Virus record (IMG/VR): IMGVR_UViG_3300033698_000020
Span: 1 to 40,615 of that record
Source: a virus
Strand: one strand, 5' to 3'
DNA: 40,615 nt
Shown: positions 2,602-28,816 of the stretch, piece by piece
How the letters are laid out: every line of letters begins with the position of its first letter
Position numbering within the stretch: the stretch's first letter is position 1
Made by a program: the position numbers and the translations under genes
The notes under the pieces: generated by a model
What the model saw: the letters and a program-made list of their open reading frames with translations, nothing else
Told to the model about the DNA's origin: nothing
Databases searched by the model: none

Positions 2602-4055
2602 TATCGCTCGCTCACTTCACAGAATTTGTCAGCCTGGGTTACGTAGTAGTTGATGTAATCAGCGGTGAACGTCTGGTTCAGGGCGGTAACAGTCATGCCA
2701 GGCTGGAGAAACAGATCAATTGCGCAGCGCACCCGGCGCTTTCCGTTGCTTGTGCTGATGCTTCGAATTGCTGAGAGTTGCCGGCTACCACGGGATAGCG
2801 GCTTGTCTTGCCGATACCCGGAAACCGTAACTGTCAGCGCTCGCTGCCCGCGATCCGGGCGAAGATTATCAAAGCCAGACCTCATGATCTCATCGTACTG
2901 AGTTTGTCCGGTGGAGAGCACGTAACCTTTTTGGATTACCAGATCACCGTTCTGGCGAGCCTCAATGGCGTCAAGGTAGGCGTCAGCTGCCGGGATGACG
3001 GCCTGCAGATAAACGGATCGGCCAGCCGCTTGGTTTGTAGCCTGCCAACTTGAGATGCCTCCAATATAGAGGTCTCCAAGTCCGTCCTGGGTGCCGGTGA
3101 TGACGAGCCGGTAAACCTCCTGCAGAGCCGTTGGCGGCAGCCGGGAAACCCAGTCCTGAAACGCCGAAACGCTGAGCTGAATCGGGAACGATGCATCAAG
3201 CGCTATCTCGACCGGGTTCACCTGCACGCTGAATTGGGCCGTGATCGGCAGGGCGGCATCCAGTGCGACATCGTATGTGACCGGGGAGATGTCGGTGATT
3301 AGCGGTTCAGCGGTGCCGGCCGTGTTGAGGTTGGCGACTTCAGTGCTGGTCAGCTTTCGGTTCCAGATTGCACAATCCTGAATGATGCCGTCCAAAACGG
3401 TGTCATCGAGGTAAGGGTCACCGCCGCCGTAATCATTGGCGCCAATCAGGTTGCTGTCCGACGTTCCAGTGTCGTCGTATATCTGGTAGGCGGCACCGCC
3501 GATAAATGATGAAAGCAGGCTTCCGTTAACATATAAATCAACGCCCGATGAATCGCCAGTCAGAACAATGTCATGCCATTGACCATTCGCGAAAGGGTCG
3601 CTCAACATGTCATCGTTACCACCGGCACCGACAAAAAAGCTTCCTCCGCCAGAATTCAGGTAGACAGCGTTTGCCGAGCCTGTGCCAAAAAGAAAGATTG
3701 CCCGATTCATGACACTGTAATTAGCTTTAGGGTCGGATCTTTGGAAATACCGAAGCCGTACGGCGAAGGCCGGCAGCGAAGGCGCACTTTGCGCCTGGCT
3801 GATCCGGATCACCGTAATGCTATTGCGGTCCTGATAGGTACCGTCCCAGTTAGCGCTTAAATCCCGGCCTCTACCGGCTGGCGTCGTCACTGCCGTGGCG
3901 TCGTATTCTGCCGCGGTCAAAGTATTGAGCGCGAAGCACTCGGCATCCCATCCGCCGATCAGGTCAGCAACGGTGGTCCCGGCGGTCTCTTCCATGGCCC
4001 AAAAGTGGATCAGGCCGTCACCCTGGGCAGCGATCAGATCCGCGTACTTAGCCAT
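2601..4055 (-). CDS. LamG/concanavalin-like tail protein (probable receptor-contact protein)
   Basis: 484 residues. The N-terminal half (about 1-250) has the pattern of a LamG/pentraxin-like lectin fold: GLIHFWAMEE at the start, FANGQWHDIVLTGDSSGVDLYVNG in the middle, and DGIIQDCAIWNRKLTSTEVANL at the end (split motifs). This fold binds carbohydrate or acts as a structural jelly roll. The C-terminal half contains two similar short strands (VTYDVALDAALPI and NPVEIALDASFPI) and then a beta-rich region without a recognised family. It overlaps the previous gene by TGATG and the next by TAATG, so it is translationally coupled. A tip or side-fibre protein that touches cell-surface sugar is the best guess. 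Confidence 0.75.
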   Translation of the reverse strand: MAKYADLIAAQGDGLIHFWAMEETAGTTVADLIGGWDAECFALNTLTAAEYDATAVTTPAGRGRDLSANWDGTYQDRNSITVIRISQAQSAPSLPAFAVRLRYFQRSDPKANYSVMNRAIFLFGTGSANAVYLNSGGGSFFVGAGGNDDMLSDPFANGQWHDIVLTGDSSGVDLYVNGSLLSSFIGGAAYQIYDDTGTSDSNLIGANDYGGGDPYLDDTVLDGIIQDCAIWNRKLTSTEVANLNTAGTAEPLITDISPVTYDVALDAALPITAQFSVQVNPVEIALDASFPIQLSVSAFQDWVSRLPPTALQEVYRLVITGTQDGLGDLYIGGISSWQATNQAAGRSVYLQAVIPAADAYLDAIEARQNGDLVIQKGYVLSTGQTQYDEIMRSGFDNLRPDRGQRALTVTVSGYRQDKPLSRGSRQLSAIRSISTSNGKRRVRCAIDLFLQPGMTVTALNQTFTADYINYYVTQADKFCEVSER

Positions 4056-4459
4056 CAGACAGGCATCCTGATCACGCCAGAGGTTAGGTTAACCGGCTCG
4101 CCGGCGGCAACCGTTGCCGGGCTGACAATAGCCGAGGCGCCGCTCCCAGTTCCGCCAGCAGTTACATACATCACCTCCTCGGAGCTCTTATTGAGCAGGC
4201 GGGCCCAGCCAGAATCACCGCCAGCAGGGGCGGCATCTTCATCTGTCCATCCGCTGAAGGTGATAATGCCGTTTGATTCAGTGCCAACGGTTGAGCTGAG
4301 CGTAAATGTCGCCAGCAGGGTATCCGTGATGGCGTTACCCATACTGGCAGGCATGGTTCCGGTGTAAAGTTCCAGGACTGGATTAGAGCCGGCACCAGAA
4401 GCCAGATCAGCAAGCACGGCCTGGGCCAGAGTCTGGCCAAGTGAAACGCGTATTTTCAT
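4055..4459 (-). CDS. small tail-associated protein, function unknown
   Basis: 134 residues, rich in G, S, T and A, predicted to be beta-strand. It contains LELYTGTMP near residue 30 and ITFSGWTDEDAAPAGG near 65, a pattern I associate with short phage structural proteins next to fibre genes. No catalytic motif, signal peptide or membrane segment. Its ATG overlaps the stop of the preceding gene (ATGA), and its own stop overlaps the ATG of the LamG gene, so it belongs to the tail-tip operon. Function is not known. Confidence 0.7.
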   Translation of the reverse strand: MKIRVSLGQTLAQAVLADLASGAGSNPVLELYTGTMPASMGNAITDTLLATFTLSSTVGTESNGIITFSGWTDEDAAPAGGDSGWARLLNKSSEEVMYVTAGGTGSGASAIVSPATVAAGEPVNLTSGVIRMPV

Positions 4460-4809: not shown

Positions 4810-7547
4810 CAGCGAAGCCCCAGCAGCATTTCTTCACCTTCAGCGTTCACTCGAACCTGAATCTCTCGAAGAATCTCGAACATGAAGGCCTCCAAATGTG
4901 GCTGAAGGCCGGCACCATCTACCTTGATCAACGCATCGCCTTTCGAAAGCTGGCGCGTCTTTTCCTTGATGTATTCAACTTCCGCCTGGGTCAGCTTGCT
5001 CTGGTCCTCCAGAGCCTGTTCCCGGTACTCGTTTTCCTTTCGGATCTGTTTAGCAAGATCAATCTGGGTAGACCGGCTGGCATCATCGAAGCCATCAAAC
5101 AGGCCGCTGATCACCTTTCCGGTGTCTGCGAAGGTGTCGCTGATGGTTTGGGCAATGGCCTTCACGCGGTCTGCGTTGGCCTCAACTTCGGCGATATCCA
5201 GGGAAACCTTGGCGTCAATCTGGGCAATGCGCTCATCGCTGGCGAAGCCGGCCAGAGCGATCTGGTACTCAGCGGTTTGTTTTACCAGGTCTTCCGTTTT
5301 TTTCTTGGTGTCTTCAATGTCCTTGCCGGTTTTGACGATGGTTCCAGAGAAGCTGTTAACCTTGCCGGTTGTCTCGTCATAGCCCAGCTTCAGCGATTTG
5401 TTGTTCTCAGCCAGCTCTTTCGTGGTCTTGGAAACCTCACCCAGGGCACCGCCGCTGGCTGCAACCTGGCGGTTCAATTCTGTTACCGCATCTGAAACAT
5501 CCCGCTGGGAACCGGTGAACTCTTCGGTTTTATTGGCGTTGTCGACCAGCTGCTGAGCGTACTGGTTGAATTCCTGCCGCTGCTCTTCGGTGATTTCGGT
5601 GGTGTAACCCATGGTCTGGCCAAGGGTTTCATTCATTTCGTCGTAGCGTTGGCTGATCTTGCGCAGCTCTTCGGTTTCCTCGCCGAGCTTTTTGATCTCG
5701 CCGGTGGCAGGTGCAAACTGCTGTGCCAGGGCCTGCAACTCATCCGCGTTGAAGTACTCGAAGAGCTTCTGGTTAAGGTTGCCCAGCTCTTCTTCGAACA
5801 CCTCATTGATAAACGTGCCGAGGGCATAGCCGCCGGTCAGCGCCAGGCCCAGCAGACCGCCCTTGCCGACTTTCCCTAACTTCTCAATTTCTTTGAGATT
5901 TCCAATCAGTGCTTTAAATCCCTGTGCCCCGGCCAACGCCGTCAGACCTGTGCCTATGGAGCTAAGGCCACCAGCCAGGCCGCCAATTGCGGGAAGGATC
6001 ATGTTGATGGATTTTGCCCATCCGAGAAGTTCACCGGCTGATTTCTTTGTTTCCTCATCCAGGCTTTGGAACTTCTCGATGCCCTCGCCAATTGCGATGA
6101 ACAAAGGTTCCAGCCCATTGGCAATGCCAGCGGAGACGTTCACCAGCGCAGTGAAGGCATCCACGACTTTTTGCAGAACATCCTGCAGACCCTCCACGGA
6201 ATCCAGATCAACTTCACCAAACAGACCGCCGAACAGATCACCCAGCTCATCACCAAGCTCTCCGAAGGCTGCCAGCAAATCTGTCAGATCAATCCCGGAC
6301 AAGGCCTCCGGGAAGTTCTGGGCAATGGTCTGAAGCTTCTGGTCGATATCCTGTGCCAACCCCTCGAGGCCGTTCAGGATTGGCGCAAAGACGCCATCAT
6401 CAAGCCGAATCTCGGTGCCCAGTGAATTGAAAACACTGGTTATCGATTTGACGATGCTCTGGGTTTCGTCGGTCAGGCGGGAGCCGTAGGCAATCAGAGC
6501 TGAATTGATACTGTTCTTGAGGGTCTGAACAATCTTATCCAGATCGGCCTGCAGCTGATTAGCCGCGCGGGCAGCTGCCCCGGCGTTATCTTCAAATTGC
6601 TTCAGGTTTTCATTGAACTTCCGCGACGAAGTGCCAGCCAGAGAGAACACCACCGGCAGGGATTCAACGGAACCAAACAGCTTGCTGATCAGCTCCGTAC
6701 TTCCTCCGGTGGCTTCTTTCACATCAGCCATTACACCAGCAAAGCCTTTGCTTTCCAGAGCCGATGCGTTGAACTCAATACCAAGTTCAGCGGCTACTTC
6801 AGAAGCTTCCTTGGTAGGCTTGATGATCGCTGCAATGGCAGCCCGAAGCCCGGTTACAGCCAGCTTGGTACTGGAGCCGGTCTCCGCAGTGACGGTCGCA
6901 ATAGCCGCCGCCAACTCATCAAAGCTAATGCCAGCCCCTTTTGCGATCGGGGCGATCCGGCCAATGGTATCTGCCAGTTCAGGCACAGTGGTTTGGCCCA
7001 GCCGAACGGCAGTGAAGAAATCATCCGCGTATTCGCCTGCCTGGCTGGCCTCCGCGCCAAAGGCATTAAGGGTCGACACCAACGCCACCGTGGTCGATTC
7101 AAGATCGGCACGACCGGCAACAGCCAGCTGCTCCGAAGCCGCGATGATTTCCAACGAATTCCGGTAGTCCACGCCCGCAGATATTGCGCTGTATGTTGCC
7201 TGGGTGATTTGCTGGAGAGAGGCTGTCGACTTTTCCGAGTACTGAAGAATCTGTGACTGGAAGTCACGAAGGTTGTCTGCGGGCTGGTCGATCAAGGTCG
7301 CGATCTCGGAGAACGCGGTATCGAAATCATCCGATATTTTTACTGCGTAGCCGGTAATACCGATGGCAGCGGCTGCCAGAGCAGCATCCAGTTTGACAAT
7401 GCTGTCCGTGATATCAGCCAGGGGCCCGGTAACATTGCCCGCCTTGTTTACGAGGCTGTCCAGGTTACGCCCCACAGAGCTCACAGCACCGCCGGTTTTA
7501 TCAACCCCGCCGAAGATGATCTCTACGGTTTTGCTAAGGTCCGCCAT
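4809..7547 (-). CDS. tail tape measure protein (TP901 type)
   Basis: 912 residues from the chosen start. The N-terminal 330 residues fit the TP901-type tape-measure core: FDTAFSEIATLI, then a stretch on LQQITQATYSAISAGVDY, TIGRIAPIAKGAGISFDELAAA, and LPVVFSLAG. Hydrophobic segments near residues 515-560 and 580-600 could insert in the membrane during DNA ejection; the C-terminal third is charged and helical. A GGAGAAAAC ribosome site sits before MADLSK, so I start at 7547 rather than at the ATG at 7562, which lies directly against the T-run of a terminator. At about 0.15 nm per residue the length predicts a tail near 135-140 nm (a rule of thumb). Located after the tail chaperone, as in other siphophages. 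Confidence 0.95.
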   Translation of the reverse strand: MADLSKTVEIIFGGVDKTGGAVSSVGRNLDSLVNKAGNVTGPLADITDSIVKLDAALAAAAIGITGYAVKISDDFDTAFSEIATLIDQPADNLRDFQSQILQYSEKSTASLQQITQATYSAISAGVDYRNSLEIIAASEQLAVAGRADLESTTVALVSTLNAFGAEASQAGEYADDFFTAVRLGQTTVPELADTIGRIAPIAKGAGISFDELAAAIATVTAETGSSTKLAVTGLRAAIAAIIKPTKEASEVAAELGIEFNASALESKGFAGVMADVKEATGGSTELISKLFGSVESLPVVFSLAGTSSRKFNENLKQFEDNAGAAARAANQLQADLDKIVQTLKNSINSALIAYGSRLTDETQSIVKSITSVFNSLGTEIRLDDGVFAPILNGLEGLAQDIDQKLQTIAQNFPEALSGIDLTDLLAAFGELGDELGDLFGGLFGEVDLDSVEGLQDVLQKVVDAFTALVNVSAGIANGLEPLFIAIGEGIEKFQSLDEETKKSAGELLGWAKSINMILPAIGGLAGGLSSIGTGLTALAGAQGFKALIGNLKEIEKLGKVGKGGLLGLALTGGYALGTFINEVFEEELGNLNQKLFEYFNADELQALAQQFAPATGEIKKLGEETEELRKISQRYDEMNETLGQTMGYTTEITEEQRQEFNQYAQQLVDNANKTEEFTGSQRDVSDAVTELNRQVAASGGALGEVSKTTKELAENNKSLKLGYDETTGKVNSFSGTIVKTGKDIEDTKKKTEDLVKQTAEYQIALAGFASDERIAQIDAKVSLDIAEVEANADRVKAIAQTISDTFADTGKVISGLFDGFDDASRSTQIDLAKQIRKENEYREQALEDQSKLTQAEVEYIKEKTRQLSKGDALIKVDGAGLQPHLEAFMFEILREIQVRVNAEGEEMLLGLR

Positions 7548-14243: not shown

Positions 14244-14318
14244 TGGTTGCAGGGGCTGGATTCGAACCAGCGACCTTCGGGATATGAGCCCGATGAGCTG
14301 CCACTGCTCTACCCTGCA
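14244..14318 (-). tRNA. tRNA-Met (CAT anticodon), initiator-like
   Basis: 75 nt, reads TGCAGGG ... CCCTGCA A CCA on the minus strand, so the acceptor stem is complete and CCA is encoded. D stem GAGC/GCTC, anticodon stem TCGGG/CCCGA, anticodon loop CTCATAT, variable loop AGGTC, T arm GCTGG TTCGAAT CCAGC. Three consecutive G:C pairs in the anticodon stem and the A11:U24 pair are marks of bacterial initiator tRNA. Position 1:72 is a weak U:A pair where initiators usually have a mismatch. Position 38 is U instead of the A of E. coli initiator tRNA. It starts 6 nt after the portal stop and is followed by a terminator. Elongator or Ile2 identity cannot be fully excluded. Confidence 0.92.
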
Positions 14319-24157: not shown

Positions 24158-24185
24158 CTATAGCTGACTATTTTTTATGTCAGCC

Positions 24186-24506
24186 TTACTCAAACAACCG
24201 ACCATCCACCCAGGCCTCCGCACTTCGCAGCAGCACCCGCACCTTCTCCCGGCTGGTGTTCACCTCCAGGCCAATCATGGAATAGTCCCAGCGCCGAACG
24301 TAGTAGGCCAGCACCACCTTGCCCAGCTCCGGCTCTCGCTTCTTCAGGCAGGCCACCGCCTGGTCCACCGCCAGGGCCTCATCATCCGGTACCGAACAGC
24401 CACCCATGCCGGCAGTCAACTGTACCGCCGCATAGCCCGAGTTAACGCCACCACTGCGCACCCACACGCCCCAGTCCTGCAGTCTCCGCTTCGTGTCTTC
24501 CAGCAT
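24186..24506 (-). CDS. late antitermination protein Q (Phage_antitermQ family)
   Basis: 106 residues. RLQDWGVWVRSGG at the start, DDEALAVDQAVACLKKREPELGKVV in the middle, and a C-terminal HTH-like VRRWDYSMIGLEVNTSREKVRVLLRSAEAWVDGRL (quoted in part), closely follow the Q proteins of phages 21/82 type. Q loads on RNA polymerase paused at the late promoter and makes it ignore terminators. Ribosome site GGAGACAGCT. It is the last gene of the leftward early arm and faces directly onto the predicted late promoter and two terminators. Confidence 0.9.
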   Translation of the reverse strand: MLEDTKRRLQDWGVWVRSGGVNSGYAAVQLTAGMGGCSVPDDEALAVDQAVACLKKREPELGKVVLAYYVRRWDYSMIGLEVNTSREKVRVLLRSAEAWVDGRLFE

Positions 24507-24818
24507 AGCTGTCTCCAGTCAGTGTTTTTCTCGATATTCAGGGTCTATACAACGTTTTGCTGAAACGCTGTATAGAAGTAGCCCTTGGGGCACAAGGGAT
24601 ATACATAGCTACAGGGTTTACAGGGTATGTTTCCTCGCGCGGGAGAATTTTTTTATTAACACTGGGTCTTAAGTAATTTCATAAATTACACACGCGCACG
24701 CGCGCCAGACCCAGCAACCCCTGTAAACCCTGTATATCCCTTGTGCCCCATAGCCCGGTTATATACAGGGTCTTAAAGTGGTGCCTGCAAACCCTGTATA
24801 AAATGGGGCAAACTCACC
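24507..24818. other. structured non-coding region, candidate replication origin
   Basis: 312 bp without a credible gene. Contents: a 31-nt hairpin at 24545-24575 (CTATACA-a-CGTTT / AAACG-c-TGTATAG); a large inverted repeat with arms 24587-24625 and 24719-24749 (GGGGCACAAGGGATATACA plus CAGGGTTTACAGGG), the left arm carrying a few extra bases; inside it CTGGGTCT/AGACCCAG (24662-24669, 24707-24714); inside that GTAATTT-cat-AAATTAC (24673-24689); an 18-bp alternating purine-pyrimidine run (24688-24705); a run of T in GAATTTTTTTATTAAC; and several copies of TATACAGGGT-like words on both strands. Repeats, a melting-prone stretch and adjacency to primase/helicase genes suggest an origin. A regulatory or recombination site is an alternative. 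Confidence 0.5.
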
Positions 24819-26444
24819 CTATACATCGTCCATCGTTCCTTGAGTCCGGTTCCTGAACTCTTTAACGCACTCACCTAGCCAGTCCATCTCCGTCCCCTTC
24901 TCAGGCTTATTACACCCATCAGGAATGAAGAAGGTGCCCAGCTTCTGGCCAACCTCACCAAGCCGGTAAAACTTCCGCGTCTTGTAGATCTTGCTGGCGT
25001 AGATGGTGATCAGCTTCGTCTCACTCAGCGCCCGGTTGCCCGTTTTCTTACACCACGCCTGGTACACGTGGTACAGATCCCGGGTAAGGCACGGCGCAAA
25101 GGGCGCATCGGCCTCTCCATCCTTCCATTCCCGGAAGAACACCTCAAAGTTCGGCAGGCTGAACTCAATCACCCGCTGCCTGGCAATTGTGTCCAGAGGT
25201 TTCGTGTGCGGGGAAAAGTCCCCCAGGGGGTAATCCAGCAGCAGCTGGTAGAAAGCCGCCGGCCCACCGTTATCCAGCTCAAACGACACCCGGTTCTGCA
25301 GCTCCGCACTCAACGTGCCCTTGGGCCACACCACCAGGAACCGCCGATCACTGGGCTCAAGCGGGAACGGCTGAATCTCGTTACTGAGAAACACCCCGTT
25401 CATGTGGTTGGCTTCCTCCCAGCCGCTCACGAACTTCCGCTCGATGCGCTGGGTCTGCCCCGTGATCATGTGCTTGATGGTGCCCATCTGGTTGTGCTTC
25501 TCCGATCGGGAAAGCACCTCCTCAAACACCGCATACAGCAGCCGGCTTCGCCAATCCGTGTACTGGGATTCCAGCTGATGCTGGCCAAGGATCGCCGCGT
25601 ACCGGCCATAGATCACCCGCATCACCTCGCCAAAGAACAGCGATTTACCACTGCCATGCACATCGGAATGGAACAGTAACGCGGTATCCAGCTTCGCCCC
25701 CACGTTCTGAAGCGGGTAAGCCAGCCACCTCACCACCCAGTCGATCGTGGCCTGGTCCTGGTTGCACAGGTGGCATAGCAGATCGAAGATGCCCTTGCAC
25801 TTCTGATACTTCTCAGCCTTGGCCATATCATCCGGCACCAGCGGAATGCCGGTAAACGTGTTGATGGTGGTTTCGGTATCGGCCTGCTGGGTGGGGTCAA
25901 ACACAATGTTGTCCTGGTCGATCACCTGCCGCCGTGGGTGTTCCATCCAGCGCGTGTAATCGTTCGGCATGTAGGCCTTCAGCGCCTCAAGTGGCACCAC
26001 ATCCTGCCGCTGCCTGTCCCAGGCGTTCTTGGTGGGGTAAATGTAAACAAACCGCTCAATAATCTGCATCAGCGGATCTTTCGAGGGGTCCTTCTGCTGC
26101 TGCCCGTTCACCTCTATCCAGGTCATCGTTCGCCGGTTCGGGTGCTTCATCCAGGCGTTGAACAGCTCATTGCCCATGGTGGCCTTCATGCCGGCCTGCT
26201 TGTACACCTTCTGCTGGTGCGAGTCGTAAATCTTCGTTTCACCATGGATCAACGCATAACGCTGCAGGGCCTTCTGAAGGCTATCGCCCTCCCCCGCACC
26301 CCCTGAATCAGAGGGGGCCAGGGGAGATTCATCCGCCGGGGAATCATTGCTGGCAGGCCCGGCCTCGATAGCCGCCATCACCTGCCGGCGAACCGCCTCA
26401 AGCCCTTGCGCCTTATGCAGATCATTAAAATCAGTCAGCGCCAT
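24819..26444 (-). CDS. replicative helicase, superfamily 3-like (DUF5906 type)
   Basis: 541 residues. P-loop HSDVHGSGKS at 259-268, Walker-B-like AVFEEVLSRSEKHN about 40 residues later, sensor-type FLSNEIQPFPLEPSDRRFLV (N-containing strand plus arginine), the set seen in DUF5906 helicases of phage and plasmid primase-helicases. N-terminal 60 residues are linker-like; residues 60-250 include a cryptic domain that may contact primase. Works with the adjacent TOPRIM primase to open and copy the phage genome. Its ATG lies inside the primase gene with GGAGG before it (14-bp overlap). Confidence 0.9.
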   Translation of the reverse strand: MALTDFNDLHKAQGLEAVRRQVMAAIEAGPASNDSPADESPLAPSDSGGAGEGDSLQKALQRYALIHGETKIYDSHQQKVYKQAGMKATMGNELFNAWMKHPNRRTMTWIEVNGQQQKDPSKDPLMQIIERFVYIYPTKNAWDRQRQDVVPLEALKAYMPNDYTRWMEHPRRQVIDQDNIVFDPTQQADTETTINTFTGIPLVPDDMAKAEKYQKCKGIFDLLCHLCNQDQATIDWVVRWLAYPLQNVGAKLDTALLFHSDVHGSGKSLFFGEVMRVIYGRYAAILGQHQLESQYTDWRSRLLYAVFEEVLSRSEKHNQMGTIKHMITGQTQRIERKFVSGWEEANHMNGVFLSNEIQPFPLEPSDRRFLVVWPKGTLSAELQNRVSFELDNGGPAAFYQLLLDYPLGDFSPHTKPLDTIARQRVIEFSLPNFEVFFREWKDGEADAPFAPCLTRDLYHVYQAWCKKTGNRALSETKLITIYASKIYKTRKFYRLGEVGQKLGTFFIPDGCNKPEKGTEMDWLGECVKEFRNRTQGTMDDV

Positions 26445-27327
26445 CGGCAGCCTCCGAAAACTCCGGAACCACCCAAACGCCGTTCACCGCTTTAGCGGCC
26501 TCTTCTGCCTTCAACCGGCCCGGGTTCTTGCCGATGCGCTCCTCCGTCTCCCTGTCTTCATCACCGGCCACACAGATCAGCGCCGAAGGGAAGAACTGGC
26601 GAATGGCTTTCGCCACGGGCACCAGGTTGCCGGAATCAAAGGCCACCGCAACCGGCAGGCCGGTGGCCATGTGCACGCTGGCACCGGTGGCGTAGCCCTC
26701 CACAATCAGAACCGGGCATTCCGCCTCCGGTATATCCGTGAGCCAGTGAAAGGAACCTTCTTTCGGCGTACCGGTGAGGAACGTTTTCTCACCATCGGGC
26801 GAGATCCATTGAAGGCTCACCAGGTCCAGCGCGAACAGCTGGGGGCCGTCGCAGGCAACCGGTTTGTAGACAGGGACAACCACACTACCCCGGCTGTAAC
26901 GAATCCCGAACGACGCCACGCCTTTGGCAGCCAGGTACTTGCTGGGCCCTTCCAGGGGTATCTTACTCCAGATGCGTTGTGCCCGTTCCTTACAGGCTTT
27001 CGCCGCTGCCTCCGCCTCTTTACGGGCCTTTTCCTGTGCCTGTTTGCGCCGGCGCTGGTACTCCGCGCGGTCTTCCTCCGTGAGCGAACCGGCGGGCATA
27101 CCCACCTTGCGCTTTTCATCGGCCTTGTAATTGCCAAAGGCACCCGCCAGGCCAATACCGCCAGAGTTCAACCGGAACTCATGAACCACATACCAGCCGG
27201 ATTTATTCTTGCCTTTGTCGGCACGGGGATAAGTGACAGGAACCCGGACCAACTTGCCCGAGGTATCGATGGAATCGACCAGGAGGCCGAGATCGCGCAT
27301 CTGGGTGAGCACCGCATCAATATCCAT
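26431..27327 (-). CDS. TOPRIM-domain primase
   Basis: 298 residues. C-terminal TOPRIM: LIVEGYATGASVHMATGLPV with Glu210, AVAFDSGNL with Asp231, and CVAGDEDRE (the DxD, 255-258) carry the metal-binding residues. The central charged helix (about 82-118, many K/R/E/A) is linker or coiled coil. No CHC2 zinc finger is visible, so template recognition probably uses the helicase partner or the N-terminal KSGWYVVHEFRL region. The ribosome site GGAGG is inside a short hairpin that reaches the start codon (27326-27342), a possible translational brake. Confidence 0.88.
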   Translation of the reverse strand: MDIDAVLTQMRDLGLLVDSIDTSGKLVRVPVTYPRADKGKNKSGWYVVHEFRLNSGGIGLAGAFGNYKADEKRKVGMPAGSLTEEDRAEYQRRRKQAQEKARKEAEAAAKACKERAQRIWSKIPLEGPSKYLAAKGVASFGIRYSRGSVVVPVYKPVACDGPQLFALDLVSLQWISPDGEKTFLTGTPKEGSFHWLTDIPEAECPVLIVEGYATGASVHMATGLPVAVAFDSGNLVPVAKAIRQFFPSALICVAGDEDRETEERIGKNPGRLKAEEAAKAVNGVWVVPEFSEAADGAD

Positions 27328-27721: not shown

Positions 27722-28138
27722 ATGACAATTGAACCTTTCATTCAGCGGCTTACAGAGTGCATCGTTGACGGCCCCGTGTCGCAAACGGTCATTGCAGATT
27801 ATTGCGGAGTTACCAAGCAGTCAGTGGGAGGCTGGAAGCGGAACGGTTACATATCCAGGGAAAACCTCATGAAGCTGAGTGAGATCACTGGATATCGGTA
27901 CTTGTGGCTCAAAACCGGGACCGGCCCAAAGCTAATTGACGATCCGGACAAGAACGCCACGGAGTTCCGGACAGAGGAATATGAAGGGTCATACGTGACA
28001 GGCTCCGGCAGCCTGGGAAACTCAGACGAGGGCCAGGACCTCATCGAAGCGATCGCCCAGGCAGCGGCATCCAAACAGATCAATAAGAAAGCCCTGGCAC
28101 ACCTTGCAGCGTTTTTCCGGGAGCTCGCCAAAGGCTAA
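27722..28138 (+). CDS. CI-like lysogeny repressor lacking a peptidase domain
   Basis: 138 residues. N-terminal HTH: VSQTVIADYCGVTKQSVGGWKRNG, then SRENLMKLSEITGYRYLWLKTG, typical of XRE/YdaS-like repressors. The C-terminal part (LIEAIAQAAASKQINKKALAHLAAFFRELA, quoted in part) is helical and probably dimerises. There is no S24 peptidase signature, so RecA-stimulated self-cleavage is not expected; release may depend on an antirepressor such as the KilAC-like protein at 29.6 kb. Its TAA shares two bases with the stop of the convergent BRCT gene. Confidence 0.85.
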   Translation: MTIEPFIQRLTECIVDGPVSQTVIADYCGVTKQSVGGWKRNGYISRENLMKLSEITGYRYLWLKTGTGPKLIDDPDKNATEFRTEEYEGSYVTGSGSLGNSDEGQDLIEAIAQAAASKQINKKALAHLAAFFRELAKG

Positions 28139-28758
28139 CCCTGACGGTTAATACATTCAGCCCAATGCTTTTCTGACACAATATTGGGCCTTCTCCCCTC
28201 CTCCCTGTATTCAACCGCCTTTTCAATCTTTCGCCCGTAAGACTCGTGAATCCACGAATCGCTCACCAATTCGCCCACCACCACAACATCAGTGTCTTTG
28301 GTCACGTTCTTGGCAATCGAGCCACCCAACGCAATCACCATCGCTTCACACTCTTTCCGAGTGCCCGAGGCAAACTTACCGGTGAGCACGAAACGACTTC
28401 CTGAAAATTCCAGATCGGGGACCGGATCACACAGAGGCAGAGTCGAGGCCGTCTTGTCCTCGCCAACATGAATACCTGCCACATCCATCAGCAGCTTTAC
28501 CAGCTCACCCTGCTCATCATCATCCAGAACACCGTCAGCCAACATCTCATCGATCCGAGCAAGCATTACATTGGCCGGCCATTTCTCAGCGATGTCTGCG
28601 TTCTTCATCAGCCAGGACTGGAGAAACTGTGCTTCAGCCTGATTCACCGTACCATCTGCAATCACCCCTTCACAGATACCTAACAGCTGATCCAGCTTGC
28701 GATCATCCAACCGGCTTTTCCCAAAGCGCTGAAACAACGTGCTTTTGTCCTCATTCAT
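28135..28758 (-). CDS. TerB-like plus BRCT-domain protein
   Basis: 207 residues from ATG 28758 (AAGGAG nine bases upstream). Residues about 15-95 are helical and acidic (GICEGVIADGTVNQAEAQFL, LADGVLDDDEQGELVKLLMD), the two-part pattern of TerB-like metal-binding domains. Residues about 115-207 are a BRCT domain: FVLTGKFASGTRKECEAMV, then ALGGSIAKNVTKDTDVVVVG, and WAECI at the end with the conserved tryptophan. BRCT domains bind DNA ends or phosphopeptides. It is transcribed against the CI-like gene and away from the big operon, so it may be expressed in lysogens. Function unknown; perhaps DNA repair or defence cargo. Confidence 0.8.
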   Translation of the reverse strand: MNEDKSTLFQRFGKSRLDDRKLDQLLGICEGVIADGTVNQAEAQFLQSWLMKNADIAEKWPANVMLARIDEMLADGVLDDDEQGELVKLLMDVAGIHVGEDKTASTLPLCDPVPDLEFSGSRFVLTGKFASGTRKECEAMVIALGGSIAKNVTKDTDVVVVGELVSDSWIHESYGRKIEKAVEYREEGRRPNIVSEKHWAECINRQG

Positions 28759-28771
28759 TCCTTCGATCTCC

Positions 28772-28790
28772 TTGTTAACCTGCTTAACAA
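28772..28790 (-). repeat. inverted repeat in the leader of the BRCT gene
   Basis: TTGTTAA-CCTGC-TTAACAA, perfect 7-bp arms, 14 bp before the ATG and overlapping the region upstream of the ribosome site. Operator or leader hairpin; no promoter could be placed with confidence nearby. Confidence 0.5.
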
Positions 28791-28816
28791 ATAGCCAAAT
28801 CCTATTAAATTTCAAA

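Follow-up and report, generated by a model that had tools for sequence, protein, structure and literature searches.

An iteron array immediately downstream of an initiator helicase gene as a candidate replication origin in a temperate tailed phage

What is the role of a 312-bp stretch, crowded with repeats, that separates a helicase gene from the gene of a Q antiterminator? The stretch belongs to a virus record of 40.6 kb (IMG/VR IMGVR_UViG_3300033698_000020), analysed here at its full length and referred to as the window. Genes for terminase, portal, head protease, tape measure, and integrase are found in it (PHROGs), and by these structural and integrase genes the window is a complete temperate tailed phage. 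A gene of tRNA-Met (CAT) at 14247-14318 separates the gene of the head protease from that of the portal, and a BRCT-domain protein (phrog_3989, 28135-28815) adjoins a CI-like repressor. The genes around the site run on the minus strand in the order Toprim primase, DUF5906/Pox_D5 helicase, 312-bp gap, and Q, with helicase and primase next to the site, as the initial annotation had it:

24186-24506, minus strand: Q antiterminator gene, following the 312-bp gap and co-directional with the helicase gene
24507-24818, minus strand: whole site, candidate replication origin, 312 bp from the helicase stop (24819) to the Q start (24506)
24819-26444, minus strand: initiator helicase, 541 aa, DUF5906 (SF3/pox D5-like) ATPase
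24822-25151, minus strand: C-terminal winged-helix domain (CTD) of the helicase, residues ~432-541, proposed to bind the iterons and exchanged with them
24921-24986, minus strand: β-hairpin "wing" of the CTD, residues ~487-508, where a pair of Hahella helicases starts to differ
26431-27327, minus strand: primase of the Toprim type, encoded by a gene of its own that overlaps the helicase gene

The gap had been described as free of genes, which is correct in that none fills it, with the reservation that two mechanical plus-strand ORFs (24177-24563 and 24493-24672) overlap one of its ends. GC skew of the window tracks gene direction and is uninformative on the position of an origin, and no DnaA boxes were found by exact patterns.

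All of the elements originally listed for the site, namely the levels of inverted repeats, a 31-nt hairpin, an alternating tract, an AT-rich stretch, and repeated words, are present. The outer arms (24565-24605 and 24731-24771) are 41 nt long and 80% complementary, a perfect 16-bp pair is formed by 24610-24625 and 24719-24734, an inner 8-bp pair (CTGGGTCT/AGACCCAG) is located at 24662 and 24707, and a 14-bp hairpin (93%) occupies 24544-24576. Five of the six occurrences of ACCCTGTA in 40.6 kb fall within the site; the expectation, counting both strands, is 0.55, and six occurrences were reached in none of 100 shuffles. With at most two mismatches allowed, AAACCCTGTATA has ten sites in the window, nine of them inside the 312 bp (1.2 expected). 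The nested inverted repeats are the surface of approximately nine opposed iteron copies (consensus AAACCCTGTATA) arranged around an AT-rich core, and their nested look arises because the copies run in both orientations. The dyad of the 31-nt hairpin, for example, consists of the iterons at 24546-24557 (minus) and 24563-24574 (plus). The parts of the site are as follows:

24535-24574: outer iterons distal to the helicase gene, degenerate, at 24535-24546 (minus), 24546-24557 (minus), and 24563-24574 (plus)
24608-24628, minus strand: inner iteron cluster, two tandem copies (24608-24619 and 24617-24628) at a 9-bp pitch
24633-24656, minus strand: conserved element ATAAAAAAATTCTCCCGCGCGAGG, a CG-rich palindrome beside an A/T run, at the border of iterons and AT-rich DNA
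24644-24693: AT-rich core, 76% AT, the presumed melting site
24687-24705: alternating purine-pyrimidine CG-rich tract, 19 bp, the sole such run of at least 13 in the window
24716-24736, plus strand: inner iteron cluster, two tandem copies (24716-24727 and 24725-24736) at a 9-bp pitch, facing the minus-strand inner cluster
24735-24751, minus strand: second repeat ATGGGGCACAAGGGATA, shared by the two iteron classes of the Marinobacter-type group
24762-24800: outer iterons proximal to the helicase gene, at 24762-24773 (minus) and 24789-24800 (plus)

The AT-rich core is the second most AT-rich 50-mer in the window. The element at its border has the same 24 bases in one related locus (L003), and other relatives carry a T run followed by CTCNCGCGAGG. 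The second repeat, with the word ATGGGGCANAAGGG, has another copy at 24579-24599, which is inverted relative to its counterpart in the closest relative, L083. A 7-bp core hairpin and the inner 8-bp pair look incidental because they are not kept in L083. As judged across the relatives, the conserved parts of the site are the iterons, the AT-rich core, and the CG tract.

Relatives of the helicase were drawn from IMG/VR and GTDB genomes, yielding 140 loci. The initial annotation had proposed following the arms of the region in relatives. The region itself is found at the equivalent place 3' of the helicase gene in ~140 relatives, and when stretches are ranked by inverted 8-mer pairs, the helicase-3' stretch comes first within its own locus in 137 of the 140; in two of the three misses (L006 and L009) the end of the helicase gene had been set wrongly. 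The arms fared otherwise, since in most relatives they do not face each other: in 101 of the 140, right and left outer iterons have the same orientation. The layout that is kept consists of outer iterons, inner iterons at an 8-9 bp pitch, the core, facing inner iterons, and again outer iterons. The inner clusters point towards each other in 128 of the 140 loci, and the core between them has a median length of 85 bp. The iteron word varies between loci and agrees within a locus, all copies changing together, an agreement that is partly built into the picking of the sites and is not usable as a statistic. Single-linkage grouping gives 19 iteron classes, the largest of which, TGTGTTGGGT-like, holds 100 loci. 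Alternating runs of at least 10 are present in 98% of the relatives' cores and in 5% of random 90-bp windows; Moraxella phage Mcat9 is without a CG tract.

Among named phages, an array occupies the equivalent position in PG1, Turba, Presto, Mcat9, S1, and H4907, and the annotation shown for them marks no origin. In Stenotrophomonas phage S1 the iterons that follow the 3' end of the helicase gene are covered by an annotated gene, gp2 (L225, 2454-2804); this ORF is probably spurious. The primase encoded upstream of the same type of helicase is a Prim-Pol (PF09250) in Turba (L222, 1446-2693) and a Toprim protein in the window (26431-27327), and from these sequences the primase module seems exchangeable. 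The terminase family PF03354 was matched in only 5 of 12 related records and does not establish the completeness of the relatives. The contig that holds the 95% relative L083 belongs to a MAG with the title Rhodopirellula, whereas another relative is found in Marinobacter pelagius, possibly the result of a binning error. Locus L084 is carried by M. pelagius CGMCC 1.6775.

An indication of function comes from the C-terminal domain of the helicase. Its predicted structure is a winged helix (pLDDT 90.6); a structure search with it returned nothing under E 0.1, the best match being Orc1/Cdc6 on origin DNA, which is not significant. Within the Marinobacter-type group, TACAGGG-type iterons accompany one kind of helicase C terminus and TGTGCAGGG iterons another. 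The helicases of L083 and L003 are 99% identical in the core and 43% in the CTD, and their iterons are different. At the DNA level, counted from the helicase stop, identity between the two loci is 88-100% over the interval -1740 to about -300, drops to 36-77% between -300 and +300, a segment that comprises the CTD and the origin, and is 95-100% between +300 and +600, within Q. Two further exchange pairs are the Hahella loci L012/L085 and the loci L006/L008. The Hahella helicases have no differences at residues 235-486, their divergence starts at residue 487, in the first strand of the wing, and their iterons are entirely different (GCCACAGGT versus TGTGCAGGGT). On the CTD tree the iteron class changes 18 times, the minimum for 19 classes, and on the tree of the helicase core 21 times.

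The CTD-iteron argument rests on close pairs, since over deep divergence the CTD predicts the iteron no better than the core does. A sliding-window correlation of protein and iteron distances over 74 diverse loci is dominated by phylogeny and has no peak at the CTD, and in pairwise comparisons at core identity >0.75 the CTD does no better overall than the core, the test being informative only at >0.93. Among these natural variants, however, the co-exchange is strong, and comparison of the close pairs demonstrates that the CTD and the iterons have been swapped as one cassette. This exchange, together with the iteron array, its fixed geometry, and its constant place 3' of the helicase gene, is established at the level of sequence. 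The 312 bp are thus very probably a replication origin of the phage, with iterons that would be bound by the CTD of the helicase and a bidirectional start at the AT-rich core. The initial proposal of a candidate origin is well supported by the conservation of the site and by its co-exchange with the proposed DNA-binding domain of the helicase.

We infer the physical steps, namely binding, melting, head-to-head loading, and the direction of replication, to be as follows. Several copies of the helicase would bind the iterons via their C-terminal winged-helix domains. Facing each other across the core, the inner clusters would lead to the assembly of helicase rings head to head, and these rings would open the AT-rich core, from which bidirectional replication would begin, with primers made by the separate Toprim protein. 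The site might regulate transcription into Q as well.

A role in transcription alone, as an RNA attenuator or antitermination element that acts in the helicase-Q transcript through nested hairpins, had also been suggested, and it is very unlikely. The site does lie between two co-directional genes, its RNA folds far more strongly than shuffled sequences (z -9.9), and it has three terminator-like sites where 0.4 are expected; however, strong folding would be forced anyway by opposed iterons. In the 101 of 140 loci mentioned above the long outer arms cannot pair, because right and left outer iterons share their orientation, and in L083 the arm extension is flipped, so that the long hairpin is not conserved. 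The site has no match to an Rfam family, in phage Turba the gene downstream of it is encoded on the other strand, and an attenuator leaves unexplained why the helicase CTD changes along with the iteron words.

It is equally improbable that the site is not an origin but an array of operators, through which Cro/YdaS, CI, or the helicase itself would regulate Q and the late genes. Inverted repeats of short words are typical of operators and a promoter into Q could sit here, but no sigma-70-like promoter was found in the site, the class of the iteron word goes with the CTD of the helicase, and neither an AT-rich core nor a CG tract is expected in an operator. Least probable of all is a packaging (cos/pac) or partition (parS) site. 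The repeats, the symmetry, and the intergenic position would suit such a site, but the stretch keeps company with the helicase gene and changes together with a domain of the helicase, and no comparable link to terminase or partition genes was seen.

An initiator-helicase origin of this layout is known from other elements, and the initial description of the structure as being of a new type was overstated. In the origins of PICIs and SaPIs, which are phage satellites, as in the window, the 3' end of the initiator helicase gene is followed directly by two sets of iterons with AT-rich DNA between them (PMC6092414, PMC7581432). The C-terminal domain of the SaPI Rep acts on iterons directly downstream of its own gene (PMC7581432), and for an E. 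coli PICI a rep-ori region with this layout has been assayed as a replicon after cloning (PMC6092414). In the PICI/SaPI initiator it is the C-terminal domain that recognises the iterons, and the same role is proposed for the CTD in the window. The likeness is drawn from published descriptions of the layout, and the iteron words of the window differ. In addition, PICIs have no phage structural genes and measure ~15 kb, whereas the host element here is a complete tailed phage (a 40.6-kb record with terminase, portal, tape measure, and integrase) and its origin includes the conserved alternating CG tract.

The site also resembles crr of the satellite phage P4, which is located directly 3' of the α gene and has 8-bp iterons in both orientations, some at a 9-bp pitch. 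P4 α and the window have in common a Toprim primase, a DUF5906/D5 helicase, and a Pox_D5 C-terminal segment, although α combines them, together with a zinc ribbon, in a single fused polypeptide and in the window these parts are split over two genes, with a Pox_D5 match that is short and barely above the cut-off. The profile match between P4 α and the window proteins is weak and covers the helicase part only. P4 has two distant sites, ori1 and crr, with GGTGAACA-type iterons, whereas the window has one, the sole match in the record, with the word AAACCCTGTATA.

Other systems are less similar. In plasmid pRN1 the origin is likewise 3' of a replication gene for a primase-helicase-winged-helix protein (PMC4234260), but the primase is of the archaeo-eukaryotic type and the origin is a 100-nt stem-loop with no iterons. 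The origins of lambda O and P22 gp18 share with the window phage iterons and a phage initiator as their binder (proposed for the window); their iterons lie inside the initiator gene, not outside it, and the P22 helicase is a separate protein of the DnaB type (PMC8022706). The closest solved fold to the helicase is the C-terminal region of the primase-polymerase of phage NrS-1 (6k9c, E 3.5e-16), at ~15% sequence identity. From these comparisons the best reading of the site is an iteron origin of the PICI/SaPI/P4-crr kind, served by an initiator helicase and carried by a complete temperate tailed phage.

The kind of origin is known; as far as openly licensed PMC papers show, its occurrence in a complete tailed phage and in relatives of that phage, the exchange of CTD plus origin, and the conserved CG tract are new. 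In one paper the layout was ascribed to PICIs and, in its words, to "no other known bacterial replicon"; a complete phage now has it. The result assigns an origin to widespread phages of Pseudomonas, Marinobacter, Hahella, Halomonas, Stenotrophomonas, and Moraxella, in whose records it is unannotated, and the natural domain-swap pairs make the recognition of iterons by the helicase directly testable. More tentatively, many self-sufficient temperate tailed phages may use an origin of the PICI type and diversify by exchanging CTD and origin as a cassette, with the CG tract as a new functional element. If so, cassette exchange would let related prophages replicate without cross-talk, and the alternating CG tract would perhaps form left-handed DNA that localises melting.

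The DNA word of the iterons can serve to search for origins, or for satellites that make use of another element's origin. When 19-bp tandem iteron patterns, one for each of two classes, were scanned over IMG/VR without any protein, a helicase gene ended at most 500 bp upstream in 175 of 216 stretches among the matches listed. Several of the remaining stretches in that list were cut at the edge of the locus and some resemble glycine-repeat coding DNA. The words came from these same relatives, so that the scan tests linkage rather than discovery; among the matches listed, no satellites sharing the iterons were established. One locus, L313, in which there is no helicase match, has successive short arrays at ~6784-7134 with different words (CCCGTCA, GTGCAGGG, and TGGAGGG), each pair around an AT-rich stretch. 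A smaller array in L257 (~3870-4210), in which words of the TGTGCAGGG type surround a CG tract, is located 3' of a 547-aa ORF that is unmatched by the helicase profile and possibly encodes another initiator.
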